Assembly: GCA_903819975.1 (NCBI GenBank)
Contig: CAIJFI010000009.1
Span: forward strand, 1 to 64,000
Reading direction: 5' to 3'
Length of the DNA: 64,000 nucleotides
Source: an uncultured Bacteroidota bacterium
Lineage (GTDB): Bacteria; Bacteroidota; Bacteroidia; Chitinophagales; Chitinophagaceae
The notes under the pieces are model-generated. The model was given only the letters and a program-made list of their open reading frames with translations, ran no database searches and was not told where the DNA came from. Positions 19 through 4,085 of this stretch are shown here, piece by piece (position 1 is the first letter of the stretch; every line of letters begins with the position of its first letter). A program made the translations under genes and the position numbers.

Positions 19-89
19 GGTCCTGTGGCCGAGTGGCTAGGCAGAGCTCTGCAAAAGCTTCCACAGCGGTTCGAATCCGCTCGGGACCT
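19..89 (+). tRNA. tRNA-Cys (anticodon GCA)
   Basis: A full cloverleaf folds here. The acceptor stem GGTCCTG pairs with CGGGACC (one G-T pair). The anticodon loop CTGCAAA sits on a 5-bp stem, the T arm is AGCGG/CCGCT around TTCGAAT, and the discriminator is T as in bacterial tRNA-Cys. CCA is not encoded. Any promoter lies at or before the window edge. A terminator hairpin follows directly at 95-126. Confidence 0.95.
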
Positions 90-94
90 CGATA

Positions 95-126
95 TAAAGC
101 CTCTCAACGAAAATTGAGAGGCTTTA
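95..126 (+). terminator. Rho-independent-type hairpin after tRNA-Cys
   Basis: A 13-bp perfect stem (TAAAGCCTCTCAA with its complement) closes a 6-base loop. It is nearly identical to the hairpin after tRNA-Leu at 3854-3887. Only a short T run follows, and its 3' arm is reused as the 5' arm of the next palindrome (121-183), so the two structures exclude each other. Confidence 0.75.
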
Positions 127-392
127 TTCATTTAAGGCAGCGTCACAAGCTTGCTTGTGAAAGCTGGCGAGAATGAATAAAGCACAACAGCAAACAAAGT
201 TTGCTGTTGAAAAGGCTTTGGGTAAACAGAGACGAGAGCGGAAGACAATGCGAAGCATTGGCTATCCGAAAAGGCTTTGGGTAAGACGAGATTACCGTGG
301 CGGATCAACGACGAGCAAAGCGAGGAGTTAATCCAAGTTTGATTTAAGCGGAAGCTAGCGAACGAAGTGAAGCTAGCTATCCAAAAAGGACT
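121..392 (+). repeat. Multi-hairpin intergenic repeat element, copy A
   Basis: This 272-base non-coding stretch is a string of hairpins. (1) 121-132 pairs perfectly with 172-183 (12 bp) around an inner stem 144-150/153-159 with a TT loop. (2) 185-195 pairs with 199-209 (11 bp, AAA loop). (3) CAATGC/GCATTG (246-251/255-260, GAA loop) is framed by CGGA and TCCG. (4) 302-309 pairs with 327-334 (one mismatch) around GAGCAAAGCGAG (313-324). (5) GCTAGC arms (354-359 and 372-377) enclose GAACGAAGTGAA and are framed by GCGGAAG and TATCC. The phrase AAAGGCTTTGGGTAA recurs at two junctions (about 211 and 271). A homologous copy with different but still paired stems lies at 3879-4075. The long minus-strand reading frame here (132-419) is explained by the repeat and is not called as a gene. 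Confidence 0.8.
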
Positions 393-3766: not shown

Positions 3767-3852
3767 GCCCTGGTGGTGGAACTGGTAGACACGCAGGACT
3801 TAAAATCCTGTGGGCCGCAACGCCCGTGCGGGTTCGATTCCCGCCTGGGGCA
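3767..3852 (+). tRNA. tRNA-Leu (anticodon TAA)
   Basis: An 86-base class II tRNA with a long variable arm. The acceptor is GCCCTGG/CTGGGGC (two G-T pairs), the anticodon loop CTTAAAA is on a CAGGA/TCCTG stem, the T arm is GCGGG/CCCGC, and the discriminator is A. It reads UUA codons, which are frequent in this AT-rich genome. Confidence 0.95.
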
Positions 3853-3853
3853 C

Positions 3854-3887
3854 AAAGCCTCTCAACGAAAGTTGAGAGGCTTTTTTT
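3854..3887 (+). terminator. Terminator after tRNA-Leu
   Basis: A 13-bp perfect stem (3854-3866/3871-3883) closes a GAAA tetraloop and ends in seven Ts. It is almost the same hairpin as the one after tRNA-Cys. The T run is complementary to an A run at 3931-3938, which builds a second, competing hairpin. Confidence 0.85.
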
Positions 3888-4075
3888 ATGCAAGACAACG
3901 ACGAAAGCTTGCTTTCGAAAGTTGGCGAGCATAAAAAAAGCACAACACAAATCAAAGATTTGTGTTGAAAAGGCTTTGGGTAAGACCAATCACATGGGAA
4001 GACGTTTTGAGCAAAGCGAAAAACGGCAGTCCCAAGTGAGGATAGTTTGAAAAGGCTTTGGGTAAGACCACTAAA
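3879..4075 (+). repeat. Multi-hairpin intergenic repeat element, copy B
   Basis: Homologue of the element at 121-392. Its outer stem 3879-3891/3929-3941 (13 bp, perfect) encloses 3902-3908/3911-3917 with the same TT loop. Next is an 11-bp perfect stem 3943-3953/3957-3967 with the same AAA loop, then AAAGGCTTTGGGTAAGA, then CGTTTT/AAAACG (4003-4008/4020-4025) around GAGCAAAGCG, framed by GGGA and TCCC, and a second AAAGGCTTTGGGTAAGA at 4051. Stem sequences differ from copy A at many positions, but both strands of each stem changed together. Minus-strand reading frames across it mirror those in copy A only because of the DNA homology. Confidence 0.8.
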
Positions 4076-4085
4076 CAACTATTTG

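Follow-up and report, generated by a model that had tools for sequence, protein, structure and literature searches.

A small folded element behind tRNA genes in one order of mostly freshwater bacteria

We analysed a 64,000-nucleotide stretch of DNA from an uncultured Bacteroidota bacterium of the family Chitinophagaceae (GenBank assembly GCA_903819975.1, contig CAIJFI010000009.1, positions 1 to 64,000; hereafter the window), which carries two copies of a gene-free element of about 200–260 bp: copy A, which starts at about position 95, directly behind a tRNA-Cys gene, and copy B, behind a tRNA-Leu gene (Table 1). Paired bases of this element are kept through compensatory change in long-resident orthologous copies, and selection on the fold rather than on the bases is well supported. 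In our leading explanation, to which we give an even chance, small non-coding elements of one family were inserted at the 3′ ends of tRNA genes, where they now persist as folded trailers of those tRNAs. A preliminary description of the window had placed five hairpins within 121–392; all five were recovered (P3, P4 and three 3′ hairpins at about 239–268, 302–334 and 349–382), but the unit begins some 26 bases upstream of the proposed start, right behind the tRNA, and the tie between insertion and the tRNA end had been missed.

Covariation, folding strand and distribution

The RNA folds of the two copies were far more stable than those of their shuffles, none of which was as good: −111 kcal/mol for positions 91–400 (copy A), where shuffles averaged −72 (z −8.6), and −86.9 kcal/mol for positions 3850–4085 (copy B), where they averaged −49.9 (z −9.3). 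Among 104 distinct copies, 97.3% of cells were paired, compared with 76.4% after shuffling and at most 50.4% when slid, and two-sided changes occurred at 33 of 44 pairs, with a covariation score of 0.526 versus 0.143 in shuffles. The earlier proposal that the fold, and not the bases, is under selection is thereby borne out, including at a single locus: in the tRNA-Cys orthologs of 13 species, bases paired in 96% of cells, Watson–Crick double changes were present at 29 of 44 pairs, and paired columns were less alike than unpaired ones (0.67 versus 0.81). Copies resembled one another more by tRNA than by genome (0.749 versus 0.719), indicating that resident copies maintain the fold and that copying between loci is not the main means; gene conversion as its main keeper is disfavoured for the same reason.

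The preliminary description had named RNA and single-stranded DNA alike as the possible site of the fold, and these data narrow the question to one strand. In model-aligned copies, G-U and U-G cells outnumbered A-C and C-A cells by 160 to 11, counts that are biased towards the covariance model because it was trained on sense-strand copies, and in all 122 copies compared the sense strand gave a more stable fold than the complementary strand, by a mean of 10 kcal/mol. Together, these results identify the tRNA-sense strand as the folding strand, whether as RNA or as single-stranded DNA.

Searches of this genome and its relatives, as the preliminary description had suggested, revealed a family of copies. 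The exact 13-mer AGGCTTTGGGTAA occurs eight times in this genome and in most members of a Sediminibacterium-like genus (41 genomes searched); outside the genus, it showed no clear excess over a reversed-pattern control. A covariance model built from 30 copies found eight full copies in this genome. Within the genus, 32 of 37 species carried the element, with as many as 18 copies in one genome, and scattered matches appeared in 23 of the 199 genomes taken from across the order (E ≤ 1e-4). Nearly all of the copies lie behind tRNAs. A contig scan of GTDB gave 109 stretches, the listed titles of which are almost all metagenome-assembled genomes, largely Bacteroidota or Chitinophagaceae. The carriers belong to one order of mostly freshwater bacteria. 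A weak match in Chryseobacterium takakiae, from another order (L158:1516-1650; 20.5 bits), may be chance.

The host tRNAs are diverse, including Cys, Leu, Arg, Glu, Met and Lys and, elsewhere in the order, Pro, Ser and Gln. In most cases, the first base of the element directly follows the discriminator base. Of 152 model-aligned rows, 87 start at the end of a tRNA called by ARAGORN; among the others are rows at truncated tRNAs or at the ends of contigs, rows in a recurring context that is not a tRNA and ends in GGCTA, and rows in which the palindromic stems were matched in antisense. Among 28 further loci from the order-wide search, 23 had a tRNA directly upstream (ARAGORN) and two a tRNA 3′ end or tandem copy; two of the other three loci are truncated.

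Several copies depart from the common layout. One minimal copy (L044:2050-2118) has P1 and P4 only, P2 and P3 being absent. In three tRNA-Cys orthologs (L219, L224 and L237, in G007, G015 and G009), the P3 apex is enlarged by the extra hairpins GCCACGAAGTGGC, GAGCTTGCTTC and GAGCGAAGCGA, large expansions which indicate that the fold tolerates inserted structured domains. The 3′ module is repeatable, with exact AAAAGGCTTTGGGTAA at 210, 269, 3968 and 4050 of the window, and tandem 3′ modules spaced 68–82 bp apart were seen at G009:C21:102357-102701 (L039), L016, L043 and L047, several of them running from the P4 loop (GAA) to the hairpin TCCC, like a duplicating unit.

Insertion, tRNA pairing and the terminator

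In ten copies, a repeat of the tRNA 3′ end (13–16 of 16 positions) lies downstream of the element, versus 0.65 expected; nine of the repeats lie between +26 and +43, and the tenth lies at +113. At two loci (L325 and L333), the native terminator still lies to the right of the copy. The tRNA-Met site is empty in this genome (L311) and occupied in a relative, G009, with the same upstream neighbours; there, the copy is followed by an island with what we take, by reading its open reading frames (ORFs), to be copper and nitrous-oxide genes. Orthologs of tRNA-Cys that lack the element have a different acceptor stem (GGTCGGG/CTCGACC versus GGTCCTG/CGGGACC here) and a plain terminator. Read from its flanks, the element shows itself to be an insertion, with a displaced tRNA 3′ end behind several copies, as after site-specific integration.

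The inserted unit appears matched to its tRNA. Bases after the GGGTAA motif form 2.47 of 4 possible Watson–Crick pairs with the acceptor 3′ strand of the upstream tRNA (pairing P0), versus 1.66 (standard deviation 0.18) when tRNA classes were permuted, and none of 5,000 permutations over 15 flank classes was as high in a fixed register that was picked after inspection and with the tRNA-Cys class left out; scored as the best run in any register, P0 was not significant (155/1,000). In the fixed register, this comparison shows a statistically supported complementarity across tRNA classes, predicted from sequence. For copy A, CGGG variants, which would pair through G-U, occur in relatives; in copy B, the GACC of the 3′ module pairs with the acceptor end of tRNA-Leu. 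Elsewhere in the order, P1 is often, by eye, an inverted copy of the tRNA trailer.

The 5′ strand of P1, AAAGCCT, has two mutually exclusive partners. Pairing with the start of P3 extends P2 into a terminator hairpin, P2x, in 121 of 124 copies, with at least 5 T of 8 behind P2x in 121 of 124; pairing with the P1 3′ strand, which closes a four-way junction (P1–P4), is possible in 116 of 124, and both partners are available in 115 of 124. In a tRNA-Leu(caa) copy (L300), all three strands are altered together (AAACCC/GGGTTT/GGGTTTG). These counts show that the element holds a predicted intrinsic terminator of its tRNA that shares a strand with the four-way junction, and the conservation of both partners suggests a bistable trailer, which may switch in the cell. 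The terminator accounts for only part of the element. The P1 3′ strand, AGGCTTTG, together with GGGTAA has the highest sequence conservation in the family, and the hairpin form GGATCA..TAATCC of the second 3′ module of copy A is the one found order-wide.

Table 1. Features of copies A and B in the window, with their host tRNA genes.
Feature	Positions	Strand	Detail and basis
tRNA-Cys (gca)	19..90	+	Host gene of copy A; ARAGORN
P0 5′ strand CTCG	88..91	+	Made up of the tRNA-Cys end and trailer; can pair with CGAG (233-236 and 287-290), by inspection
P2x	94..127	+	P2 lengthened by P1 5′ strand, putative intrinsic terminator of tRNA-Cys; 94-107/114-127, 100% complementary
P1 5′ strand (T)AAAGCCT	95..102	+	Alternative partners 121-127 (terminator P2x) and 213-220 (P1)
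P2 hairpin	103..118	+	Unit member; with 95-102 and 114-127 makes the predicted tRNA terminator
P3 long hairpin	121..183	+	Two conserved internal loops, apex AAGC-TT-GCTT; folding, covariation
P4 hairpin	185..209	+	Loop AAA; folding, covariation
P1 3′ strand plus GGGTAA	213..225	+	Motif and model searches
First 3′ module	226..268	+	P0 3′ strand CGAG 233-236; T-arm-like hairpin CGGAAG..CTATCCG, compare tRNA-Cys T-stem GCGG/CCGC; sequence
Second 3′ module	269..334	+	AAAAGGCTTTGGGTAA, CGAG 287-290, hairpin GGATCA..TAATCC; sequence, order-wide loci
Third 3′ hairpin	349..382	+	CGGAAG..CTATCC; sequence
tRNA-Leu (taa)	3767..3853	+	Host gene of copy B; ARAGORN
Copy B core	3853..3983	+	P1 3853-3860/3971-3978, P2 3861-3876, P3 3879-3941, P4 3943-3967, GGGTAA to 3983; fold, covariance model
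Copy B 3′ module	3984..4065	+	GACC, hairpin about 3991-4038, second AAAAGGCTTTGGGTAA 4050-4065; sequence

Alternative explanations and the moving enzyme

Under the inserted-trailer explanation, a trans-acting enzyme, most likely a tyrosine recombinase, would have integrated the element by a site-specific crossover that joins the T-loop and the 3′ end of the tRNA. Transcripts that read through the terminator would then rearrange into the four-way junction, and the RNA-level fold may be what selection keeps, through termination, trailer processing or a released RNA of about 138 nt. Tyrosine recombinases are the sole integrase class known to target tRNA genes (PMC4383910), which is why one of these, trans-acting or since lost, is our best guess. 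More tentatively, and with somewhat less than even confidence, the family may be a new class of integrative element without genes, one that finds the 3′ end of its target tRNA through complementarity to the acceptor end and the T-stem and then persists behind that tRNA as an RNA trailer with two stable forms, terminator and four-way junction.

Several observations weigh against an RNA trailer left by integration. Most old copies have no recognisable displaced tRNA end, and recombinase and integrase searches identified no recombinase dedicated to the element. The RNA-level role of the fold is predicted from sequence, and with a strong terminator the P3/P4 part may rarely be transcribed. The strand asymmetry is subject to the training bias given above, and an alignment-free count at P4 was noisy and much less asymmetric (G-T 62 versus A-C 50). 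A G-U bias would also be equally expected from single-stranded DNA of the sense strand.

The strongest rival is a DNA-level mobile element, which we regard as possible though rather unlikely. Here, one strand would have to fold as single-stranded DNA to serve as a substrate for recombination or transposition, like attC hairpins or IS200/IS605 ends, the stretches complementary to the acceptor and T-stem would guide it to the target tRNA end, and it would be mobilized in trans. The near-constant position of displaced tRNA 3′ ends, the complementarity matched to the target tRNA and the tandem 3′ modules fit such an element, as do the GNA-type triloops and 2-nt apical loops, which are typical of DNA mini-hairpins. 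However, copies long resident at a single locus have retained the fold, and the enzymes that it would call for are scarce. The RAYT/Y1 transposase domain (PF01797) was absent from this genome and in the genus was found only in species with 0–1 copies; reverse transcriptase (PF00078) was absent here and found in only 4 of 37 genus members (G010 and G043, as well as G017 and G052, two species in which the element is present); and the IS110 DEDD transposase (PF01548) was absent here and matched only in G011, G047 and G051. Most copy-rich species thus have neither a Y1 transposase nor a reverse transcriptase gene, and IS110 is present in few. Tyrosine recombinases numbered one to three, mostly two, in 9 of 10 genus relatives searched, most of the copy-rich species checked having only two, which are apparently XerC and XerD; this genome gave nine matches. 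Integrases were almost never near copies: about 1.57 Mb of loci contained only five integrase-like ORFs, few of them by a copy. An XerC-like gene near one copy (C9:97217) was taken as part of a shared conserved neighbourhood rather than as a link.

That the copies are leftover ends (attL/attR scars) of ordinary tRNA-targeting genomic islands whose insides were lost, with hairpins that are merely terminators, seems improbable. Such scars would explain the G009 islands with tRNA-Met 3′ halves and cargo between copies, the truncated tRNA contexts and the one integrase adjoining a copy (L084). Yet a compact, ordered layout of P1–P4, GGGTAA and hairpin recurs in more than 100 copies, behind more than 10 tRNA types and across families, and random scars would not covary. 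The least credible explanation by far is that no selection acts and template-switch correction during replication holds the palindromes perfect, which suits stems that change faster than loops but offers no reason to favour G-U over A-C (160 versus 11) or to keep the long-range P1 and two exclusive partners.

Some copies lie in cargo-bearing regions. The G009:C21 islands (L038 and L039) and L141 presumably carry copper and nitrous-oxide reductase genes behind tRNA-Met, with no evident integrase, and a conserved prefix of about 45 nt precedes each tRNA-Met 3′ half. Between copies at L354 (G000:C13:36000-52000) and L358 (G015:C53) lie genes that, from their ORFs, we take to be toxin–antitoxin-like (RhuM-like, DUF4160/DUF2442, XRE and Fic); this region is variable, with syntenic genes next to it, and its copies sit behind a conserved flank that is not a tRNA and ends in GGCTA. 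We considered a cassette system and dropped it, as displacement of tRNA ends by ordinary islands would account for the truncated tRNAs.

Relation to known systems

The preliminary description recognised no matching family, and this held against repetitive extragenic palindromic (REP)/RAYT systems, IS110, reverse transcriptase elements, Rfam and CRISPR. REP/RAYT, reverse transcriptase elements (group II intron or retron) and IS110 bridge RNA were rejected on the gene content of this genome and of most copy-rich relatives. Among 4,227 Rfam models, only tRNAs scored above gathering, the element matching no family; in the window, weak matches to leader families at 796–925, below gathering score, lie at a plain terminator hairpin (about 800–835) and were read as chance. 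The phage collections gave no blastn match and plasmids one short weak match. A phage origin was set aside, exact-motif matches in IMG/VR scoring 11.8–27.3 bits (best E 6e-5), versus mostly >80 for genus copies, and being read as chance. We found no description of the element in the literature searched, our coverage of which was partial.

The closest likeness is to tRNA-targeting integrative elements and genomic islands (Islander; PMC4383910), which share the tRNA 3′-end site, supply of their own tRNA 3′ end, a displaced 3′ fragment and a T-loop/acceptor crossover, whereas the element here is about 250 bp, has no genes or integrase and has a conserved fold. It could be a non-autonomous form of such islands; the Islander filters, which require an integrase and at least 2 kb (PMC4383910), would exclude it. 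Tycheposons likewise bring cargo to tRNA genes, including tRNA-Met, as islands in aquatic bacteria with streamlined genomes (freshwater case, PMC10872708), but span 4–200 kb with a tyrosine recombinase, in contrast to a non-coding structured unit (PMC10872708). REP/REPIN sequences with RAYT (PMC3733652, PMC6006769) are also short multi-copy palindromes, and the tandem G-A pairs and GNA loops of the 3′ hairpins look REP-like; compared on the multi-helix unit of about 140 nt, the element differs in having no RAYT/Y1 gene in this genome or copy-rich relatives, a tie to tRNA ends and a multi-helix fold with compensatory stems. Candidate structured RNA motifs (for example, PMC2864571 and Rfam) resemble it as covarying, RNA-like intergenic elements, but this one has no Rfam match, repeats behind many different tRNAs and pairs with the tRNA. 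Integron attC sites and IS200/IS605 ends are alike by workings only, through strand-specific folds and pairing-based recognition; here, no such enzyme is linked, and a four-way junction comes with a terminator, a distinction from attC that is drawn by description. Unlike CRISPR, the loops are conserved, the stems vary and there is no repeat–spacer order. Because each tested family fails a defining feature, the tRNA-linked element may be of a new kind, with integrons and REPs (by head motif) set apart by description only.

If this reading is true, the element would be a mobile or formerly mobile one that consists of fold alone and is matched to its individual tRNA. Although it is spread over an order and a small genome can hold as many as 18 copies, it is absent from the RNA and mobile-element catalogues searched. 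Its existence raises the questions of which enzyme moves it, whether tRNA trailers hold structured RNAs under selection and how one element would be tailored to more than 10 different tRNAs.
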